DNA of 43,936 bases from Desulfovirgula sp. (GTDB lineage Bacteria > Bacillota > Desulfotomaculia > Desulfotomaculales > Desulfovirgulaceae), in assembly GCA_020725525.1 (NCBI GenBank), contig DYEX01000065.1, positions 1-43,936 on the forward strand, in the 5' to 3' direction. Position numbers and translations under genes: made by a program. Of the stretch, positions 11,327-22,609 are shown one piece after another. How positions within the stretch are numbered: the stretch's first letter is position 1; each line of letters starts with the position of its first letter. The notes beneath the pieces are model-generated. The model did no database searches and was not told the DNA's origin. It saw only the letters and a program-made list of their open reading frames with translations.

Positions 11327-13789
11327 GTGTCTTCCTTGGTTAACAGGCCTTTAGTATACTTAACCCTGGCTTTTGCAGCCGGCATTTTCCTGGCGGGCAG
11401 CTGGAAATTGTCCCCCAACACGGCCCTATTCATTTGTGGTGCCCTGTTTTTCGCAGCCGTGCTGGGGTATTTTTTTCACTGGTCTTTTAACCGGTGGGTT
11501 ATATTAAGCCTGTTCCTGGCCCTGGGTCTTGCCCGGGCCACCCTGGACGCTTCCAGCATCAACCCGGCCCTGTACCAGTACACCGGCCATTGGGTAACCG
11601 TGGAAGGAATTGTAACCCGGGAGGCGGATGTCCGTTCGGACCGGGTTTACTACTGGCTGGATGTGCAGAGGATTACCCTGGGATGGGAGGCCCGGGAGCT
11701 CCAGGCGCTGGTGCTTGTGCGGGCCGCCGCCCCGGGGCCCGTTTACTCCTACGGGGATCGTCTGCGCCTGCATGGTTTGCTGACTCGCCCTCCGGATGCA
11801 GGCAATCCCGGGGAATTTGACTATCGCGCTTACCTGACCCGCCGGGGTGCCGGTGCGGTCCTTATGGTGCGGGATCCCGCTTCCATTCAGAAGCTTGGGG
11901 TGGGCGGGCACCCGGTGGTGCGGGCGGTTCTGCGGGTTAAGGAAAAACTCCTCACGGTCAGCCGGGCTACCCTGCCGCCGGATAAAGCAGCCCTTTTAAA
12001 CGGCATTGTCTTTGGCAGCCAGGGGCAGATAGACCGGAAGACCTGGCAGCTTTTCAGTGAATCCGGCGTGGTTCACATCCTGAGCGTCAGCGGCCTGCAC
12101 GTGGGTCTCGTTCTGGCCGGGGTGCTGGCCCTGGTCAGGTTGCTGCGCGTGCCCCTTTCCCTTACCGCGTCTATCGGTACCGCGATATTGCTTCTTTACG
12201 CTACCCTGTGTGGTTTGGGCCCGGCGGTGACCCGTTCCACCCTCATGGCCCTCATGTTTCTCTGGGCCCACCACCTGGGCCGGGCAAGGGACTGGCCTAC
12301 CACCCTGGCCGCGGCGGCCCTGGTCAGCCTCATGGCCAGGCCCCTCTCCCTTTACGACATTGGCTTTCAGCTTTCCTTTACTGCCACCTGGGGCATCCTT
12401 TACCTGGGACCGGTGCTGGACGGGCTGTTGAAAAATGTCATCCGGCATACGTGGTTAAGGGCAGCCCTCTGGGTTTCCCTGGCCGCCCAGCTGGCCACCC
12501 TGCCCCTGATAGCCTGGTACTACAATTTGATTTCTCTGGTATCCTTATTGACCAATCTGGCGGCAGTGCCCCTCACCGGGTTGATCCTTGCCCTGGGCAC
12601 GGTGTCTGCCCTCCTGGGCCTGGTTGTTCCTTCCCTGGCGGGCTTTATTAATATCAGCACCTCCTTGCTTCTGGATCTTTTCATGGGCCTGGTTTCCTTC
12701 TGCCGGGCCTTGCCCGGTTCGGTAATCTATGTTCCCACGCCGCCTTTTTTCCTGGTGGTGGCCTGGTATCTTCTCTTGTTTTGGGGAGTTTTGCCTGTCT
12801 CAAAAGACGGCCGGGCCGCCTTGCGCCAGTTTTTCAGCCGCCATCACCGCTTATTGCCGGTGGCTTTCCTGGGCGGAGGACTTTTGTTAGCTATTTTTCT
12901 GTTCAAAAGTCCCGGCGAAAACCAGCTGGTGCTCCATTTTATCGATGTGGGCCAGGGAGACAGCATTCTCGTCCAGACTCCCGGCGGCAGAAACATGCTG
13001 GTGGATGCCGGGGGCTGGCCGGGGGAACTGGACTCGGGGGAAGGAGCCGGGGAGAAGGTGGTGGTGCCGTACCTGCGCCGGCTGGGTGTCAGGCGCCTGG
13101 ATGTGCTGGTGATCACCCATCCCCACGAGGATCACGCCGGAGGAATGAAGGCGGTGATCGAAGCCTTTCCGGTTGATCTGGTCCTGGTGTCACCGGTGGG
13201 CGGAACGGGGAATTCTTCCGTATCTGCCGGGGCTCATTCCCGGTCTCCCGACAAAGTCCCTTTAACCTATAGCACTCTTATAGCCGGACTGGCCGCCCGG
13301 GGTGTGCCTGTGAAGACAACGGGGGCAGGGGACCGCCTGCACCTGGACCCGGCTCTGGATATCCAGGTACTGGGGCCGCCCCGGCCGCTGCTTTCCGGCA
13401 CCCGGTCTGATTTGAATAACGCCTCGCTGGTGTTGTGTCTTCGTTACGGAGAAGAAGTGCTGTTGCTTACCGGGGATATTGAGGTGGAAGCCCAGCAGGC
13501 CCTCATGGATACGGGCGTTAATCTGGGGTGTACCGTGCTCAAAATACCCCATCACGGCAGCCGTTACCTCCTACCTTCTTTCCTGGAAAAAACACACCCG
13601 GATGTAGCGGTGATTTCCGTGGGACGGCATAACAATTTCGGGCATCCCGCCCCGGAAACGCTGGAACACCTGGCCCGGATGCCGGTGCGGGTTTACCGCA
13701 CCGATCTGGATGGGGCGGTTATCTTGAGGACCGACGGCAAACACATCTTTGTCAGGACAGGCCGCCAGCGCCGGGCGGCATCTCTCTGA
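11327..13789 (+). CDS. comEC: ComEC/Rec2 DNA-uptake channel with metallo-beta-lactamase domain
   Basis: 820 residues, full length. N-terminal membrane helices and an OB-like DUF4131 region (about 1-190, GYFFHWS..., GDRLRLHGLL, GNPGEFDYRAYLTRRG) are followed by the multi-helix competence domain (about 215-500, SGVVHILSVSGLHVGL, GAAVTRS-like segment LCGLGPAVTRSTLMAL, YDIGFQLSF). The C-terminal metallo-beta-lactamase domain (about 535-820) has VGQGDSILVQTPGG, the metal motif THPHEDHAGG (His598, His600, Asp602, His603), LLLTGDIE and KIPHHGSRY. It carries single-stranded DNA across the membrane during transformation, and the extra domain probably degrades the other strand. The start is GTG 11327 (weak CGGGG site) or TTG 11336. 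It is the last recognisable backbone gene before the accessory region. Confidence 0.95.
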   Translation: MSSLVNRPLVYLTLAFAAGIFLAGSWKLSPNTALFICGALFFAAVLGYFFHWSFNRWVILSLFLALGLARATLDASSINPALYQYTGHWVTVEGIVTREADVRSDRVYYWLDVQRITLGWEARELQALVLVRAAAPGPVYSYGDRLRLHGLLTRPPDAGNPGEFDYRAYLTRRGAGAVLMVRDPASIQKLGVGGHPVVRAVLRVKEKLLTVSRATLPPDKAALLNGIVFGSQGQIDRKTWQLFSESGVVHILSVSGLHVGLVLAGVLALVRLLRVPLSLTASIGTAILLLYATLCGLGPAVTRSTLMALMFLWAHHLGRARDWPTTLAAAALVSLMARPLSLYDIGFQLSFTATWGILYLGPVLDGLLKNVIRHTWLRAALWVSLAAQLATLPLIAWYYNLISLVSLLTNLAAVPLTGLILALGTVSALLGLVVPSLAGFINISTSLLLDLFMGLVSFCRALPGSVIYVPTPPFFLVVAWYLLLFWGVLPVSKDGRAALRQFFSRHHRLLPVAFLGGGLLLAIFLFKSPGENQLVLHFIDVGQGDSILVQTPGGRNMLVDAGGWPGELDSGEGAGEKVVVPYLRRLGVRRLDVLVITHPHEDHAGGMKAVIEAFPVDLVLVSPVGGTGNSSVSAGAHSRSPDKVPLTYSTLIAGLAARGVPVKTTGAGDRLHLDPALDIQVLGPPRPLLSGTRSDLNNASLVLCLRYGEEVLLLTGDIEVEAQQALMDTGVNLGCTVLKIPHHGSRYLLPSFLEKTHPDVAVISVGRHNNFGHPAPETLEHLARMPVRVYRTDLDGAVILRTDGKHIFVRTGRQRRAASL

Positions 13790-14004
13790 ACCCCCCCTGC
13801 AGCGGTATTACCCTTCTACCCGGGACATCGAGACAATGACCGCTCTGGCCGTAGCAGAGTGTAACAATACGGACCTGCTTCCGCCACGGTACTACAAAAA
13901 ATTACTCAAGAGCTGTAACAGCCAAACACTGGAAGACCAGAAAAGCGCCCGCGCAAGGAGCAGGAGAGCGCTTTGATTTTTCTCGAGAAGGTGATGGCAA
14001 TGCA
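13790..14004 (+). other. gap after comEC with a weak open frame
   Basis: A frame from 13749 to 13976 overlaps the end of comEC and codes for up to 75 residues ending in a basic tail (QKSARARSRRAL). Its internal ATG at 13836 would give 46 residues. Neither start has a ribosome site and I do not recognise the sequence. It may be a remnant of a gene cut when the neighbouring accessory block arrived. No terminator is evident. Confidence 0.25.
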
Positions 14005-14082
14005 TGGAAACCTTAGCATCTTCCGAGTTATAATATACTCGGGAGGATTGTCATGAAAAAAGTGACGGTAAATATAACCTGA
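14005..14082 (+). promoter_or_regulatory. promoter of the nurA-herA block with palindrome around the -10, and a 9-codon leader ORF
   Basis: TGGAAA (14005-14010) and a perfect TATAAT (14029-14034) are 18 bases apart. The -10 sits inside the inverted repeat CCGAGT (14023-14028) / ACTCGG (14037-14042), a natural position for a repressor operator. Just downstream a tiny frame, ATG 14053 to TGA 14082 (9 residues), has GGGAGG seven bases before it. The first large gene starts about 60 bases further on. Confidence 0.5.
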
Positions 14083-14142
14083 CGAGGTTATTATTATTGC
14101 CCGGCTTGAAGGAGATATTTAATAGGTTACCAAATTTACTGG

Positions 14143-16005
14143 ATGGTGGGTTTTGTGTCGCGCATTTCCGAGATTTACCGGGGCTACAGGGACGCATTGC
14201 GCGAATCCCAGGCACGGTACGAAGAGCTTTACATGGCACGGGTTGGTGCCGTACGGGAATTTTACCGCACATGGTTTCACAACCTGATAATCACCTATCC
14301 GGGACGCTGGAAAAAACAGGTATACATTGACAGGATTAGGCGTGACGCGGAGGCCTTTTTTGGACGCCGCGAGATAGATTTTTGCGCTGTAGATGGGAGC
14401 TGTTTTAAGGACCCCTTTACCGACTTCATGGTTTTTTTCGGGGCATCCTACGGTGTTAAAGGCCGTCTTTCCCTAACGGGATCACCGCCACACCTAAAAT
14501 ACGAGCGATGGTCCATGGATCAGGACGTAAGCATGGTGGCTTACGTACCGGTACCGCTTGCACACATTAACGAGGCAATAGGTGGAAATCCAGAGGATCA
14601 ATTCCTTATTTCGGAAGAAGATAAAATTAACCTCGCAAACATCCATACAAAAATTATGCAGCTGGCCGAAGTTTATTTAGCTTACCATATTGCCTCAGCC
14701 TCAACAATGGAATATCCCCGCCTCATTATACTTGATCATTCCCTTTCCAGCATTTTTTCCAGCGTGGAGAGAGGTACGCGAACAATCGGTCTTATTGGAT
14801 ACCAGCTGGGGCAGCGGCGACTAAACATGCGCGACGTGGTTGTCGCCCTCTCACGTCCGTACTCCCGTGAACTTGGCGTTCCGTCAGCAAAGCATTTCAG
14901 CCTCCGGCGGCGGCTCATTGCTGAACTCACCTGGAACAAGGGACGCCCGGTTGATCTTTCCGAGTTCAGCCGGCGGGAAAATGTAGACTTAGCGGAGGTT
15001 CGCCGCGCTGCGGAGGCTTTAGCCGGCCTCGGCAAGGTAGCAATCAATCCTCCAGTGGCCACTTTTAAGGCCCCGGACAGGCTTTCCGTAGCAGGTGGTT
15101 TCGACCCTGAACTGGCCTGGTATGATGCACTGCGGCTTTTTGAAGATATCTGCTACCGCCTGTTCCTCAAAAAAGACCAGTCGGCGCTTATATATACGGT
15201 GCGAGATAAAGATGGCGAACGCCGCCGGTGGATGAGCCCCGACGACCTCGATTTTCTAATCGCGGTGGGTATGCGGGGCCTTGTTGAGCGGTGCTGGGCA
15301 AAGAGAATTTTGCTCGTTGGGATTGCCAAGGACTCGTCAACACGATTCTTAAGCCGGCATTATCTGGGCGTATTGCGACACGTGGGTGCTTACCCGCAAG
15401 TGGACGTTGGCCTTTTACCGTGGACCGACCGCGTTTTCCTGGAAGCCTTGGCCCAATCGGAACCCACTATTGCAGCGCCGTGGGGCAGCGTGGAATTCGA
15501 CGGCGTATTTATGACACTGCACCTTGAAGAAGATCCTTATTCAGGTAAACCGGAAGTGCGAGGTATGCGGGGATGGGTGGTATTACCACCTGAGCGCCTG
15601 TTCTTACGCTCTCTGGCTCAGTTTTATTTAGTACGCAAACCCGGCACTACCCGCATGGGGCACGTAATTTTTGTAGACCGGCTGGCATACCCCCAGTTTG
15701 ACGGAAAGGCGTTTGGTACTGTAGAAATCAAGAATAGAGAACTTGGGACCATAAAGCCACTGGTTTATTTAAATAATGAGGTAGGCAATCAGATGCAGGA
15801 ATTGATGATGTTTTTCTTAGATGTGCTAACCAGGAATCTCTACCCGGAGGTAATTGGTTACCCGGATCCCTTGCACAAGGCGGACTGGGGTGCAAAGACC
15901 CTCGAGCGGCGAGCACGCGACCTCATCAGGAGCAGCGAGATGGCCTTTCGCATACGGCCAATTAGCCGTCTTCTTCGCACCACAAGAGATGAAGCCGGAA
16001 GATAG
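14143..16005 (+). CDS. nurA: NurA-family nuclease, enlarged, partner of HerA
   Basis: 620 residues, long for NurA (roughly 300-450). NurA is a 5'-3' exonuclease/endonuclease that works in a ring with HerA. Motif I is AVDGS (Asp84), a Glu follows at 176 (LAEVYLAY), motif III is LIILDHSL (Asp198), the Lys/Asp motif is GIAKDSSTRFLS (Lys396, Asp397), and the C-terminal motif is GYPDPLHKADWGAK (572-585), with Asp581 where many relatives have His. Between motif III and the Lys motif lies an insertion (about 230-345) whose segment LRRRLIAELTWNKGRPVDLSEF...VRRAAEALAGLGKV looks like a winged-helix DNA-binding fold. The start is ATG 14143 without a ribosome site or GTG 14155 with a weak one. herA starts 12 bases after the stop, so the two form one unit. 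Codon use is more A+T-rich than in comEC, suggesting transfer. Confidence 0.75.
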   Translation: MVGFVSRISEIYRGYRDALRESQARYEELYMARVGAVREFYRTWFHNLIITYPGRWKKQVYIDRIRRDAEAFFGRREIDFCAVDGSCFKDPFTDFMVFFGASYGVKGRLSLTGSPPHLKYERWSMDQDVSMVAYVPVPLAHINEAIGGNPEDQFLISEEDKINLANIHTKIMQLAEVYLAYHIASASTMEYPRLIILDHSLSSIFSSVERGTRTIGLIGYQLGQRRLNMRDVVVALSRPYSRELGVPSAKHFSLRRRLIAELTWNKGRPVDLSEFSRRENVDLAEVRRAAEALAGLGKVAINPPVATFKAPDRLSVAGGFDPELAWYDALRLFEDICYRLFLKKDQSALIYTVRDKDGERRRWMSPDDLDFLIAVGMRGLVERCWAKRILLVGIAKDSSTRFLSRHYLGVLRHVGAYPQVDVGLLPWTDRVFLEALAQSEPTIAAPWGSVEFDGVFMTLHLEEDPYSGKPEVRGMRGWVVLPPERLFLRSLAQFYLVRKPGTTRMGHVIFVDRLAYPQFDGKAFGTVEIKNRELGTIKPLVYLNNEVGNQMQELMMFFLDVLTRNLYPEVIGYPDPLHKADWGAKTLERRARDLIRSSEMAFRIRPISRLLRTTRDEAGR

Positions 16006-16017
16006 GAGGTTTGGATA

Positions 16018-17928
16018 ATGGCCAAACAGGTGGTGGTTAACGGCTCCATATGGGTGCCCAACCGGGCGGGCAGGTTAATGCGCATGCAGGAAGATGAACT
16101 TTCTCGTTACCAGTTTGAGATCTGGTTTGAATACACGCGACGGGCGATGAATGAAATAAGAGAAGGGGCTATGCTTGCCGTGCGCAATTTTTCTTCGGAT
16201 GCCCGGGTCGCGCGCTATAGTGTCCTCGAAGTAACGGGCTTAAAGCCAATTCACTACGCGCTAGGAGAAGAACCCCGTGGTTTTCCTGGGTTCGTAATGG
16301 AAGCGGCCAGAAGCGCTTCGCAGGACTGGATAGAGCAGGACAGCGATTCTTATGAGGATACCACGATCATCCGCTGTACCGCCATTCCAACCAACCTGGA
16401 AATCGTGGAATATCTTGATGGACGCATGGAGTTTCAAAATGAAAGCAATATTCCCATGATTGGGGAAGAAGCACGCCTTCTCTCTACAGAAGTTACCGAG
16501 CAGGTGGTAAACCGTGATCTTGATCTGGAAAATGAGGACTTAATGCTATTGGGTACCCTCACACGGGATGAAAACGTCAGGGTTTTCCTTCGCTTTGAGG
16601 AGTTCGTAAAGGTGCACTTCGGGATCTTCGGGTTTACGGGTGCCGGTAAATCAAACCTCCTCAGCACACTTATCAGTAAAATTTTGTCTAAAGAGAGCGA
16701 ACCTATCAAGGTCGTCCTCTTCGATTTAATGAGCGAGTATACGGGCCTCTTGATTGATCAGCTTCTCCGGGTCGAGCAGGCTTACCTGGTCTGCCTTGGC
16801 AAAAATACGCTTCCGGAACCAGTATTTCGTTATATCAACGGTGATACCGGACGCCCCTCCAGGGAGGACGCGGCGCGGCTATTTGCCCGCTATGCACTTT
16901 TACCAAAAGCACTTAAGCCCTATCAAAAAAAGATGGAAGCCGTCCTGGCCGCACTGATGGACGCGGGGAAGGTCAGGGTGTTTTCGCATGAAGAAAATAT
17001 GTCGGTTTATGAGTTATTTTTCGGGGATCATGAACGAGCACCGCATCGCAGGAAAAAACGATTAGACGCTTTATTTAACCAACGAAGAGAACTCATCAAG
17101 CAAGTCGTGAAGGAAAGTGGTTTATCCGACAAATGGAAACAGGTAATCACGGCATCCCTGGCTCAAAAACTTAAAAACTCGCTCGAAGAGGCACTGAAGA
17201 AAAAGGAGCACAGCAAATTTAAAGAGGGTGACTTTGCTGGTGTTCTTGAGTTTCTCGAGAAAACAATAGCACGGGCCGGTGCAACGCTTCAGTGCGGCAT
17301 TTCAGATAATGAGATCCTGCGCATTCTCAATGACGAAAACAAACCTGCCCTTTTTATAATCAACTCTCACGACCCACACGAGCTGCGCAACTTTGCTCAC
17401 CGTCTCGGCGAAAAAGCTTACGAGAACCGGCGCCAGACGGGCCGCATCTTTCCCCTGGTTTCCTTCATTTTTGATGAAGCTGACGAGTTCGTACGCCAGG
17501 AAAGCAGCGGGGAGCACGAAAGCTACAAGCGGGCGCGGGAAATCGCCCACACGCTGGCACGGCGCGGGCGGAAGTTCGGCCTGGGGCTCGGCCTGGCTAC
17601 CCAGCGCATTCGTTACCTGGATACAAGCATCATGGCCCAGCCCCACACATACCTGGTAAGCAAGCTGCCGCGAAAAACCGACCGTGAAGGAGTAGCTGAA
17701 GCCTTTGGTATCCCTGAGGAAATGTTCCGGCAAACCTTTACATTCACGGCCGGCAACTGGCTCCTGCTAAGCCATGATGCAGCAGGCCTAAAAGCCGTGC
17801 CTGTTCCGATAAAAACAGAAGATGCCAACGAGAGAATAGCTAAGTTCCTCGATAGTTTTTCGCTAACGACAGCCTCACCTGGTTTCGCTCGAGAATACCA
17901 GCCAAAACAATCAAGATTTTTTGCTTAA
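16018..17928 (+). CDS. herA: HerA-type hexameric DNA translocase (DUF87/FtsK-HerA ATPase)
   Basis: 636 residues. The N-terminal region (about 1-190) would form the HerA/ATP-synthase-type barrel. The motor core has Walker A GFTGAGKSN (205-213), FDLMSEYTGLL (about 235-245, typical of HerA), Walker B with FIFDEADEF (Asp486, Glu487), and the sensor/Arg-finger region HTLARRGRKFGLGLGLATQR (about 510-530). A charged helical insert occupies about 300-430. HerA forms a hexamer that pumps DNA into the NurA nuclease; in archaea the pair resects DNA ends, and in bacteria HerA-type motors often belong to phage-defence loci. GGAGG lies upstream of the ATG, 12 bases after nurA. The 3' end overlaps the convergent TGT-like gene by 18 bases. 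Confidence 0.9.
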   Translation: MAKQVVVNGSIWVPNRAGRLMRMQEDELSRYQFEIWFEYTRRAMNEIREGAMLAVRNFSSDARVARYSVLEVTGLKPIHYALGEEPRGFPGFVMEAARSASQDWIEQDSDSYEDTTIIRCTAIPTNLEIVEYLDGRMEFQNESNIPMIGEEARLLSTEVTEQVVNRDLDLENEDLMLLGTLTRDENVRVFLRFEEFVKVHFGIFGFTGAGKSNLLSTLISKILSKESEPIKVVLFDLMSEYTGLLIDQLLRVEQAYLVCLGKNTLPEPVFRYINGDTGRPSREDAARLFARYALLPKALKPYQKKMEAVLAALMDAGKVRVFSHEENMSVYELFFGDHERAPHRRKKRLDALFNQRRELIKQVVKESGLSDKWKQVITASLAQKLKNSLEEALKKKEHSKFKEGDFAGVLEFLEKTIARAGATLQCGISDNEILRILNDENKPALFIINSHDPHELRNFAHRLGEKAYENRRQTGRIFPLVSFIFDEADEFVRQESSGEHESYKRAREIAHTLARRGRKFGLGLGLATQRIRYLDTSIMAQPHTYLVSKLPRKTDREGVAEAFGIPEEMFRQTFTFTAGNWLLLSHDAAGLKAVPVPIKTEDANERIAKFLDSFSLTTASPGFAREYQPKQSRFFA

Positions 17929-19197
17929 GCAATACGTGGTCTCGAGGTGAGACAGGTGGTTGGTATAAAAGTTGTGCAGGGATTGAAGGACGGTGGCCAC
18001 CTCCTTTACGCCCTGCCTGTTCTCAAGGAATTCCTCCGGTGCATGCCGGCGACAAACAGGGCAGCCGCAAGCGGGCGGCAATTGCATCTTCTTGTAGATG
18101 CCAGTGGCAGGGTCGTAAATTTGACGATTCCTTGCCTTCACCATGTGCAGGTTTGAGTCAAAGGAGGTGAATCCGTATCTGTAGAGAAAGACTGCCTTTT
18201 TATCTGCGGCGCCAAAAGCGTGCAGTGGACGTTCCTTTACCCCAAGTGCTGCAAGGGCCCTAGCAAAAGAAGAAGCTAAGAGATCTAAAAACTCGTAGTT
18301 GGTTACCGGCACAAGTGAACCAACGGCAAAACCTCCAAAGCGCAGGCCAGTCTCCAACTCGGCACGAAGCAGGTACTTGATTTGCAAAGCGAAGGTGCGC
18401 GTGTAGAACGCTGCTACCATATCCCTGGATATTATCGTCTTACCTATAAGCCCTGGTGGTGGCCCCAGCGGGTGAATGACGGCAAATAAAAGGGGTTTCG
18501 GTTCCGGTGTGCGGGCGTAAAATTCCAGGGCCGTGCGTGCGCAGGTTAAATTGAACAGGACACGCCGCGATTTAACCCAGTATGGGAGATCAAAATGCAT
18601 AACGCGGTCGAGGGTAACAACTATATCGGGTTTCAGTTGAAGCTGTGTGCGCAAATGCAGGCGCTGGGCAAGGCGGGCAAGCCGGACAAAACTTACTTTA
18701 TCCCATTCATCTTCTTGGCTTTCCAACCTGACAACGGCAAGCATTAGGCGCGCAAAGCGGCGAATAGCCGGGAACGGGGACTTCAACAAGCGCACCAGTT
18801 TTTCAGATTGGCCAAAACTAAACCCACCTGAATCAAGCATCAGCAGCCCGCGATGCGGAAAAGTCCTATCGAGGATAATATAGGGGTGGTAACACTTGTA
18901 CTGAGGCAGGTTCGATTGCAGTACCTTTCTCCCTACGTGGCGGAAAAGGCTGTCCATGTGGCCGCGGAGACCGAGCCGGCACATTTCCCTTATGATGGCA
19001 GTGTCAGCGCAATATACATCATATGTACTTATCAAAAGGTTTAGATCACACCAATCGTCCGGAAAATACATTAGCTTCCGCCACTGGTTACCTGATGGGC
19101 TGTACACAGCGAAAATAGTCGGGTTAGGAAGAAAACATGCCCCATTGGGGCTGGTGAAGCTCCACCCCTTGCCTTGGCAGCAAACTGATATTTTCAT
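17911..19197 (-). CDS. tRNA-guanine transglycosylase paralogue, candidate DNA 7-deazaguanine transglycosylase (DpdA-like)
   Basis: 428-residue member of the TGT superfamily, which swaps a guanine base for a 7-deazaguanine. Catalytic features match the Zymomonas enzyme: the substrate Asp and Ser in LLMLDSGGFSFG (Asp122, Ser123; Asp102/Ser103), Asp197 in VTLDRV (Asp156), FGGFAVGS (288-294; GGLAVG), the nucleophile in FTSFDSNL (Asp347; Asp280), and zinc ligands CGCPVC (Cys377, 379, 382) with His408 in LQSLHNFY. The usual Gln in the preQ-binding loop is replaced (FAVIHPLG). The N-terminal 100 residues do not look like bacterial Tgt. A housekeeping tgt normally sits beside queA or yajC/secDF; here the neighbours are HerA-NurA and an ArcS-like protein. 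DNA-acting DpdA enzymes are divergent TGTs, so I favour a DNA substrate, but tRNA cannot be excluded. GGAGG lies five bases before the ATG. Confidence 0.8.
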   Translation of the reverse strand: MKISVCCQGKGWSFTSPNGACFLPNPTIFAVYSPSGNQWRKLMYFPDDWCDLNLLISTYDVYCADTAIIREMCRLGLRGHMDSLFRHVGRKVLQSNLPQYKCYHPYIILDRTFPHRGLLMLDSGGFSFGQSEKLVRLLKSPFPAIRRFARLMLAVVRLESQEDEWDKVSFVRLARLAQRLHLRTQLQLKPDIVVTLDRVMHFDLPYWVKSRRVLFNLTCARTALEFYARTPEPKPLLFAVIHPLGPPPGLIGKTIISRDMVAAFYTRTFALQIKYLLRAELETGLRFGGFAVGSLVPVTNYEFLDLLASSFARALAALGVKERPLHAFGAADKKAVFLYRYGFTSFDSNLHMVKARNRQIYDPATGIYKKMQLPPACGCPVCRRHAPEEFLENRQGVKEVATVLQSLHNFYTNHLSHLETTYCLSKKS

Positions 19198-19238
19198 ACA
19201 AACCTCCGTTACTGGTGTTAAAAGGTGATGGAAAGGCG

Positions 19239-19808
19239 GTGACCTCTAATAAAGAACACATGCGTTTCTCTCTTAATCCTCTTGATCTACTACGCAATCC
19301 TGGCGTGGAAAAGCTGATAAAGGAAATCCTGGATACTTACGTTCCAAAGGGAGAATTTCTCCTCATACTTCCCTGTTCTGCCCGGAAACCTTATGGTACT
19401 AGCCCAAGCCAGCGTCTTTACTGGCAGGCCGCAAGACAGGTTATAATAGAGGAAGGTATTCTTGAACGGGCCTCGCTTTCTGGTATCTATGGTATTGTGC
19501 CAGCATGTTTTGAAGACCGGGTGGCCAGCTACGACTTTAATCTCAATCGCTCTCGCTTCACCCGGGGTATGCACAGGGAAATTATGGAATTACTTGTCGA
19601 AAGAATTTGTTGTTTTCTTACCCGCTATGGTAGTTGTTTTCAAGCAGTAATTTCTTACGGGCGTGAACGTTATTGGGAAACAATGCAAATGGCAGCTCAC
19701 CGCTTGCAGATTGATAATTTATGGGTACTCCCCCGTAAAGGAGCATCATTAAGAAAAGAGGGTCTGGATGAACTCCAAAAGCTTTTAAACCGGTTAACCG
19801 GCAAATAG
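19239..19808 (+). CDS. stand-alone ArcS-like core protein (archaeosine-synthase PC-x3-KPY motif)
   Basis: 189 residues from GTG 19239, with AGGTGATG upstream; GTG 19215 and ATG 19260 are alternatives. The segment LLILPCSARKPYGTSPSQ (41-58) fits the ArcS signature PC-x3-KPY-x2-S-x2-H except for Gln58 in place of His. It is followed by SGIYGIVPACFEDRVASYDF (81-100), resembling the GVVP...YD block that follows in archaeal ArcS/TgtA-type proteins. ArcS converts preQ0 in tRNA to archaeosine through a lysine adduct. Short versions of this core, without TGT and PUA domains, occur in some viruses that carry deazaguanines in DNA (from memory). It is divergent from the TGT-like gene with only 41 bases between starts, so the two probably act on the same modified base. 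The chemistry in this organism is not known. Confidence 0.7.
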   Translation: MTSNKEHMRFSLNPLDLLRNPGVEKLIKEILDTYVPKGEFLLILPCSARKPYGTSPSQRLYWQAARQVIIEEGILERASLSGIYGIVPACFEDRVASYDFNLNRSRFTRGMHREIMELLVERICCFLTRYGSCFQAVISYGRERYWETMQMAAHRLQIDNLWVLPRKGASLRKEGLDELQKLLNRLTGK

Positions 19809-20245
19809 TGATCGCCGCGTTTTTTCGTGCCACTGCAGCCTCTTAGACAGGTACTTTTATCTCCTCGATCAGGCAACTGCATGGGATCATCCGCGTCACC
19901 AGGCACCCGCAAGGGCAGGAAAGGGAAAGTCTTTGCCCAGGCAGGCGTATTTTTCCGCTAATACCGGCGTGTAGAATATTTGCTGCATGGCGGTCACTTC
20001 CAGCAAATATTCTACCTGTTCCACAGACAAAAGAAAATGGGTCAATCGCTGGTCACCACATTCTGGTGTATGGACAGGCCGACTGACCTGAAATACCAAA
20101 ACAATATGCGAAGCAGTCGGGTATAAGAAACTGTTGCAGATTGTTCAATCTGCGAAAATAGCCGGGGTTGGACTAAATTAAAATGAGGATTGACACTAAC
20201 CTGAAGCCAAACCGTTTTTAATATTTTAAAAAGGGGGAATAGCCA
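19809..20245. other. 437-base gap between the ArcS-like gene and the GTPase gene
   Basis: No supported gene. A minus-strand frame (TTG at 20099 to TGA at 19896, 67 residues) reads like protein in part (THFLLSVEQVEYLLEV) but has no ribosome site; it may be a decayed gene. A perfect TTGACA occurs at 20190-20195, but no matching -10 stands 16-19 bases away. AAAAAGGGGG just before 20246 is the ribosome site of the GTPase gene. Confidence 0.4.
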
Positions 20246-21941: not shown

Positions 21942-22358
21942 TCAAATTTCTCCTCGGGCCAGCAGGTCTTCCTGGGTGCGCAGCCCGTACTGGGTGAAGT
22001 GCCGGTCGTAAGTGAAAGCCAGGTCGAAGGAGAGGCGGGTCATGAGGGCGAAGCTGGTGGCGTCGGTATAGGAAAAATCCTTGTCGGCGTATTTTTCTAA
22101 GATACGGCGGGCCTCTTTTTCGTCTTCTTCCGAAACCCTCTCCACGGGCCAGGTATTGGCCAGCAGCCATTCTCTGGCTTTTGCCGGGTATGCCCTGGCC
22201 GCAAGGAGGTTGTACGTCTCGGCGACGATGAAGTTGGTGAGGACCAGTTCGGCCCCCTTCTCGGTGAAATAGCGGAGAGCCCGGACCGCTTCAGGATGCC
22301 GCTGGTCGTTCCGCAGGATCAGGGCTGCTATCGCACTGGAATCTACCAGCACCCTCAC
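21942..22358 (-). CDS. vapC: VapC-type PIN-domain toxin
   Basis: 138-residue PIN-domain ribonuclease. Acidic residues expected in the metal site are present: Asp6 (VLVDSSAI), Glu47 (FIVAETYN), Asp99 (FSYTDATSFALM) and Asp118 (FTYDRHF). VapC toxins usually cut initiator tRNA or rRNA and are held inactive by VapB. It starts with GTG, overlapping the stop of the antitoxin gene by four bases (GTGA), the standard translational coupling in such pairs. The antitoxin is encoded first. A terminator follows. The pair probably autoregulates through the antitoxin's DNA-binding domain. Confidence 0.88.
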   Translation of the reverse strand: MRVLVDSSAIAALILRNDQRHPEAVRALRYFTEKGAELVLTNFIVAETYNLLAARAYPAKAREWLLANTWPVERVSEEDEKEARRILEKYADKDFSYTDATSFALMTRLSFDLAFTYDRHFTQYGLRTQEDLLARGEI

Positions 22359-22609
22359 AGCTCATCCCCCAGGTATTTGTGCTTATCGACGGAAACATCT
22401 TCTCTCCCTTCCTTATCCTCCGCGGAACCCACCAGCCGCCAGATGCCGTCGTCAAAGCTGGCGCGGGGGTAGACGGGCGCCTTGCGCAGGATCACGCTGT
22501 TCCCCCGGACCTCGCACACGAGGTAATCGCCGACGTCAGCCTGCACGGCCCTTCGGACCGGAAGGGGAAGCGTTATCTGTCCTTTGGAGCGAATTCGTAT
22601 AAGGTTCAT
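22355..22609 (-). CDS. vapB: VapB/MazE-type antitoxin with AbrB-like DNA-binding domain
   Basis: 84 residues. The N-terminus (about 1-45, IRIRSKGQITLPLPVRRAVQADVGDYL) is a swapped-hairpin AbrB/SpoVT-type domain that binds its own promoter. The C-terminus (about 50-84, acidic, SFDDGIWRLVGSAEDKEG) would wrap around the PIN toxin. GGAGTGA lies about ten bases upstream of the ATG. It is first in the vapBC operon. The pair sits at the right edge of the accessory region, as such modules often do. Confidence 0.85.
   Translation of the reverse strand: MNLIRIRSKGQITLPLPVRRAVQADVGDYLVCEVRGNSVILRKAPVYPRASFDDGIWRLVGSAEDKEGREDVSVDKHKYLGDEL

Follow-up and report, generated by a model that had tools for sequence, protein, structure and literature searches.

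A HerA-NurA pair beside a TGT paralogue and an ArcS-core protein: a candidate compact deazaguanine-based DNA discrimination system in Desulfovirgula sp.

Gene content of the locus

The window, i.e. the whole stretch of 43,936 nucleotides that was analysed, stems from the genome of Desulfovirgula sp. (G000) and contains four neighbouring genes on an inserted island. The features are given below, with coordinates as positions in the window.

13780..20195, no strand: island, about 6.4 kb, inserted between comEC and the gene for a GTPase, delimited by short junctions in congeners and GC contrast
14143..16005, plus strand: NurA-family nuclease, 620 aa, homologous end to end with the NurA of locus L018, invariant D84, D198, K396 and H578
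16018..17928, plus strand: HerA hexameric DNA translocase, 636 aa, PDLC01055 and DUF87, Walker A and B motifs
17911..19197, minus strand: TGT paralogue with affinity to archaeosine TGT, 428 aa, PF01702, TIGR00432 and 1iq8, catalytic Asp pair and Zn site
19072..19259, no strand: possible control region of the divergent TGT and DUF5591 genes, corresponding to the gap if the inner starts apply
19215..19808, plus strand: DUF5591 (ArcS core) protein with PC-x3-KPY, 197 aa, PF17884 and NF040592
19918..20196, no strand: end of a repeat element at the right island edge, about 280 bp, repeated in congeners, among them G003, at about 82% identity

All four open reading frames of the initial annotation are present at these coordinates and intact. 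Its picture of adjacent genes stands but was incomplete on strand, as the TGT gene lies opposite to the other three: NurA and HerA are read forward, TGT in reverse and DUF5591 forward. HerA and TGT are convergent, with their 3' ends overlapping by 18 bp, and TGT and DUF5591 are divergent; the set in the window is thus not a single operon. The conserved start of NurA may instead be the GTG at 14155. The starts of TGT and DUF5591 are uncertain, with M43 at 19071 and the ATG at 19260, respectively, as possible alternatives. A promoter-like site was looked for in the control region between these inner starts, and none was found.

The window NurA alone matches PF09376 with an E-value of 0.19, below the Pfam cut-off, whereas its end-to-end homologue in L018, which is 39% identical, matches at 5.1e-7. 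The NurA-like motifs are D84-GS, LD198xS, AK396DS and H578, whose numbered residues are invariant in five aligned relatives; a search of the NurA profile against solved structures gave no match. HerA matches PADLOC PDLC01055 (2.1e-89) and Pfam DUF87 (2e-16), with GAGKS as Walker A and FDEAD as Walker B. The locus therefore has the parts of a HerA-NurA complex, i.e. an adjoining HerA with Walker motifs and a NurA with catalytic residues, the NurA taken alone being under the Pfam cut-off.

The TGT paralogue matches PF01702 (2.1e-8) and TIGR00432 (2e-7), and its closest solved relative is the archaeosine TGT 1iq8 (E 4e-7). In agreement with the earlier claim of intact base-exchange residues, the catalytic Asp pair is kept (the DSGGF and SFDS aspartates, in D122-SGGF and SFD347S), as are the zinc residues of the CxCxxC...H site (C377-x-C-x2-C382 and LH408N). 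It matched none of the DpdA models of PADLOC and NCBIfam and matched the arcTGT model instead. Pfam detects the catalytic region only, with no PUA or other tRNA-binding domain. The DUF5591 protein matches PF17884 (2.1e-11) and ArcS NF040592 (3.5e-11) and carries the motif P53CSARKPY60; it gave no match to DpdC in PADLOC, and in a profile comparison it is only weakly linked to the DUF6884/DpdC-like proteins (hhalign, 34% probability at E 4e-4). The archaeosine tRNA pathway comprises an arcTGT with PUA domain and a full-length ArcS; here we found a 428-aa TGT and only a 197-aa ArcS core. AlphaFold models of NurA (from four sequences, pLDDT 48) and of the TGT alone (pLDDT 36) were too poor for fold searches.

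The island and its insertion site

In three of the five congeners (G004, G002 and G005), the same comEC and GTPase flanks are joined by 88, 82 and 84 bp. The other two carry different inserts at this junction: about 1.9 kb with an IS607-type MerR-resolvase protein and a second ORF in G001, and about 10 kb with unrelated genes in G003. The second ORF of G001 had no Pfam match. Furthermore, the island genes have a GC content of 0.45-0.52 compared to 0.57-0.60 in the flanks, and the repeat of about 280 bp at the right edge is often found at contig ends in congeners. Together, the short congener junctions, the other inserts, the right-edge repeat and the lower GC content indicate that the block was acquired, in an insertion hot spot. 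The island contains the four genes only. The junction as such (window 13780-20195; L045, L046) is a hot spot for insertions. Downstream of the island, on the minus strand at 21942-22609, an AbrB-like protein (22355-22609) and a 138-aa protein resembling PIN-domain toxins look like a toxin-antitoxin pair.

Conservation and recurrence of the gene set

G022, a member of another family of the same order, retains all four genes, split over two contigs: one (C245) carries NurA and the start of HerA, the other (C177) the end of HerA, the TGT in reverse and DUF5591. Between the window and G022, dN/dS is 0.07 for NurA, 0.05-0.10 for HerA, 0.11 for TGT and 0.16 for DUF5591; we conclude that all four genes are maintained by purifying selection, and pseudogenes were ruled out on this basis. 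NurA of the window kind occurs in 3 of the 113 genomes of the class. DUF5591 occurs in two, precisely those that have all four genes (G000 and G022), and in the class it is found only beside this NurA-HerA; the hypergeometric P for co-presence alone is 5e-4. Outside the class, the 14 control genomes included only three with DUF5591, each of them an archaeon. Among 60 relatives, only G022 has a TGT of the window type, and a scan of genome contigs with the single window TGT sequence gave no match. Fewer than 1450 genomes were searched overall.

The initial annotation had made its proposal depend on the families being found together elsewhere, and we observed that they recur in independent loci (G022, L018, L051, L052 and L016), which supports its interpretation in part. 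Three loci (L016, L017 and L018) were detected when genome contigs were scanned with an alignment of two NurA sequences. L018, from a Desulfurobacteriaceae MAG (Aquificota), contains DUF6884, NurA, HerA and TGT in one tight run, and a search of its phylum added two genomes, G361 and G423 (L051 and L052), with the same four-gene operon. The genes abut or overlap in all three operons; in L052 (G423), the TGT is cut by the contig end. In PADLOC, the TGTs of L018 and L051 match DpdA (1e-9 and 8e-11) and the DUF6884 protein of L018 matches DpdC (2e-7). DUF6884 is a distant relative of YaaA (PMC11701544) and is listed for dpdC by the authors of GATOR-GC (PMC11888242). Chance neighbourhood of the four genes was ruled out by the recurrence in other genomes.

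In L016, from a Desulfotomaculum MAG, NurA runs into a truncated TGT that is followed by DUF6884; HerA is missing, so that this arrangement is a deletion or a misassembly. Directly upstream of this NurA (L016 1-1464) lies the C-terminal part of a DruE-like (Druantia) protein, a fragment that suggests a defence island in this region.

When comparing the window TGT to those of L018 and L051, neither a MAFFT alignment of the divergent TGTs nor hhalign gave a usable match, so that they may not be sister proteins; each TGT was assigned from its own profile matches. In the NurA tree, the window groups with G022 and, weakly, with L017, and the L018 clade stands apart. The TGT partnership therefore either arose several times or disappeared in some lineages. 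We conclude from the repeated linkage that one HerA-NurA subfamily travels with a TGT and a preQ0-converting enzyme, of either the arcTGT/ArcS or the DpdA/DpdC type.

Viral, phage and plasmid collections contained no close relative of the window NurA, HerA or TGT; the only TGT matches were weak ones to a Haladaptatus plasmid and to known dpdA plasmids. On the former (L015 2278-5542), genes for DUF6884, a DpdA-like TGT and an ATP-binding protein stand in a row, with two more TGT-annotated genes nearby.

HerA-NurA without a TGT partner

The same HerA-NurA subfamily also occurs without a TGT partner. This is the case in the genus of G257 and G582, where only a canonical TGT is present, in G350 and in a Patescibacterium (L017) that has NurA-HerA only, beside helicase genes. 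In G582, HerA-NurA adjoins CRISPR repeats and csm genes; in G257 (L013 8469-16148), it adjoins queC and a queE-like radical-SAM gene, a neighbourhood that may be due to chance. G207 and G562 have degraded copies, the former near csm-type genes, the latter near a gene that looks CRISPR-associated. At L059 (8309-16652), L062 and L061, HerA-NurA of this subfamily neighbours type III csm genes (RAMP, Csm2) and CRISPR repeats; some genomes carry it in degraded form.

Proposed function and alternative explanations

We infer from the gene content that DNA is the substrate, and likewise the product, the protection by a mark and the role in defence. QueC is present in G000 and in the hosts of L016 and L018, and the TGT-less Patescibacterium has a partial and weak QueC match only. 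G000 encodes another, canonical TGT for queuosine, so that the one in the window is not the housekeeping copy. In the proposed mechanism, the cell's own QueC pathway would supply preQ0, and the TGT paralogue would replace guanine in DNA with preQ0 or one of its derivatives. The DUF5591 protein would then act on the nitrile and yield either an amide or amidine or, by the chemistry of archaeal ArcS, a lysine adduct. HerA as a hexamer and NurA as a dimer would form a translocating nuclease that degrades unmarked DNA, with free ends, e.g. of injected phage DNA, as the easiest target, and the mark would block or slow this nuclease on the cell's own DNA. Phage DpdA with Gat-QueC has been shown to put archaeosine into DNA, and phage ArcS homologues have been proposed to be amidotransferases or amidohydrolases (PMC6884629). 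In the presence of ATP, the HerA-NurA of T. kodakarensis degrades dsDNA on both strands; its authors favour an antiviral role (PMC12977600).

On balance, we favour the reading that the island is a compact restriction-modification-like system, in which the TGT and the converter mark DNA and HerA-NurA degrades unmarked or linear DNA. The two island enzymes probably put an unusual deazaguanine into DNA. As the combination recurs in unrelated bacteria, partly with different enzymes, it probably represents a new, compact way to discriminate own from foreign DNA. Several observations point against this reading: the TGT is closer to the tRNA-acting archaeosine TGT, has no DpdA match in PADLOC or NCBIfam and is not co-directional with HerA-NurA, and HerA-NurA of the same subfamily exists without TGT, both in the type III CRISPR context and in the Patescibacterium. 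The island also has no DpdB-like ATPase and no sensor for the status of the mark. A more specific version, which we put forward tentatively as a possibility, is that an archaeal tRNA pair (arcTGT and ArcS core) was turned to bacterial DNA and forms with HerA-NurA a minimal four-gene deazaguanine system for self/non-self recognition; ArcS-type and DpdC-type converters would be interchangeable, and the translocating nuclease would read the mark directly, be it deoxyarchaeosine or a lysine adduct.

HerA-NurA of the same subfamily beside csm genes in the genus of G582, and without TGT in G350 and G257, could also mean that two separate cassettes share the island. HerA-NurA would then be a stand-alone or CRISPR-type III-linked effector and TGT/DUF5591 an independent DNA modification, both accumulating at insertion sites; the convergence of the two pairs in the window and the other inserts at the comEC-GTPase junction fit this explanation. 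However, the association recurs across different enzymes, gene orders and hosts, it forms one tight four-gene operon in L018, L051 and L052, and the class has DUF5591 only beside this NurA-HerA, so that we regard separate cassettes as rather unlikely. We give still less credence to a TGT/DUF5591 pair that modifies tRNA, with an archaeosine-like or another deazaguanine, next to a HerA-NurA that repairs or defends independently. Although both enzymes are closest to archaeal tRNA enzymes and the zinc site is kept in the TGT, the genome already contains a canonical TGT, Pfam shows no PUA or tRNA-binding domain, the linkage to a DNA translocase and nuclease recurs, and the equivalents in other loci match the DNA enzymes DpdA and DpdC.

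Lastly, the first description of HerA-NurA concerned end processing in archaea, and a base mark could conceivably stall translocation. HerA-NurA might thus be a resection machine for DNA repair, with a Chi-like mark that halts degradation at breaks of host DNA rather than serving defence. We consider this highly improbable, since a patchy, island-borne distribution, in 3 of 113 genomes of the class, does not match housekeeping repair, which was rejected on this basis, and since the T. kodakarensis complex makes no 3' overhangs (PMC12977600).

If the favoured reading is true, deazaguanine-based discrimination of DNA would shrink from a Dpd island of up to 11 genes to four genes, HerA-NurA would serve in defence not only with CRISPR type III but also in a second context, and ArcS-type chemistry would extend from archaeal tRNA to bacterial DNA. 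The four-gene set is small enough to be transferred into a laboratory strain for direct testing.

Comparison with known systems

The initial annotation knew of no described HerA-NurA/TGT/ArcS set, and we likewise found none, nor any description of HerA-NurA with a TGT, in the literature searched, which was mostly without subscription papers. The Dpd system consists of DpdA-C and dpdD-K (PMC11888242). Dpd islands (dpdA-K, e.g. of Salmonella Montevideo) resemble the window in coupling a TGT paralogue and a preQ0 converter, there of the YaaA/DUF6884 type, to a DNA-restricting module, and in drawing preQ0 from the cell's pathway. They differ in that the island lacks DpdB and dpdD-K (no PADLOC match), with HerA-NurA as the would-be restriction module, and in that the converter is an ArcS core (DUF5591) instead of DpdC and the TGT is arcTGT-like.

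BRC (BREX-Related Capture, described in 2026) comprises HerA, PglZ, DUF6079, a STAND ATPase and DUF4007, with TGT and GNAT as optional members (PMC12839542). Like our island, it unites a HerA translocase and a TGT (plus GNAT) for which DNA marking has been proposed (PMC12839542), whereas it has no NurA and no DpdC/ArcS-type converter, and the island has HerA but not PglZ, DUF6079, STAND ATPase or DUF4007. Elsewhere in G000 (contig C93; L008 2822-10776 and L050 1587-2798), we observed a BRC-like locus with HerA, PglZ, a large DUF6079-like protein, a small ATPase, a DUF4007-like protein, a DpdA-like TGT and GNAT, where the DUF6079 and DUF4007 labels derive from the order and size of the genes and not from a family match. 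The cell may thus carry two HerA/TGT systems.

A HerA motor that feeds a partner nuclease is also found in HerA-Sir2, HerA-DUF4297 and the nurA-csm6-herA of Pyrobaculum, and the window HerA falls within PADLOC's model of type III-coevolved HerA; these systems, however, have no base-modification enzymes. The deazaguanine pathways of phages and viruses (DpdA with Gat-QueC or ArcS; PMC6884629) share the action of a TGT and an ArcS-type or amidotransferase converter on DNA, but are phage-borne, serve self-protection and have no nuclease partner. The island thus lies outside the definitions of Dpd and BRC but, if the inference holds, follows the same principle as Dpd.
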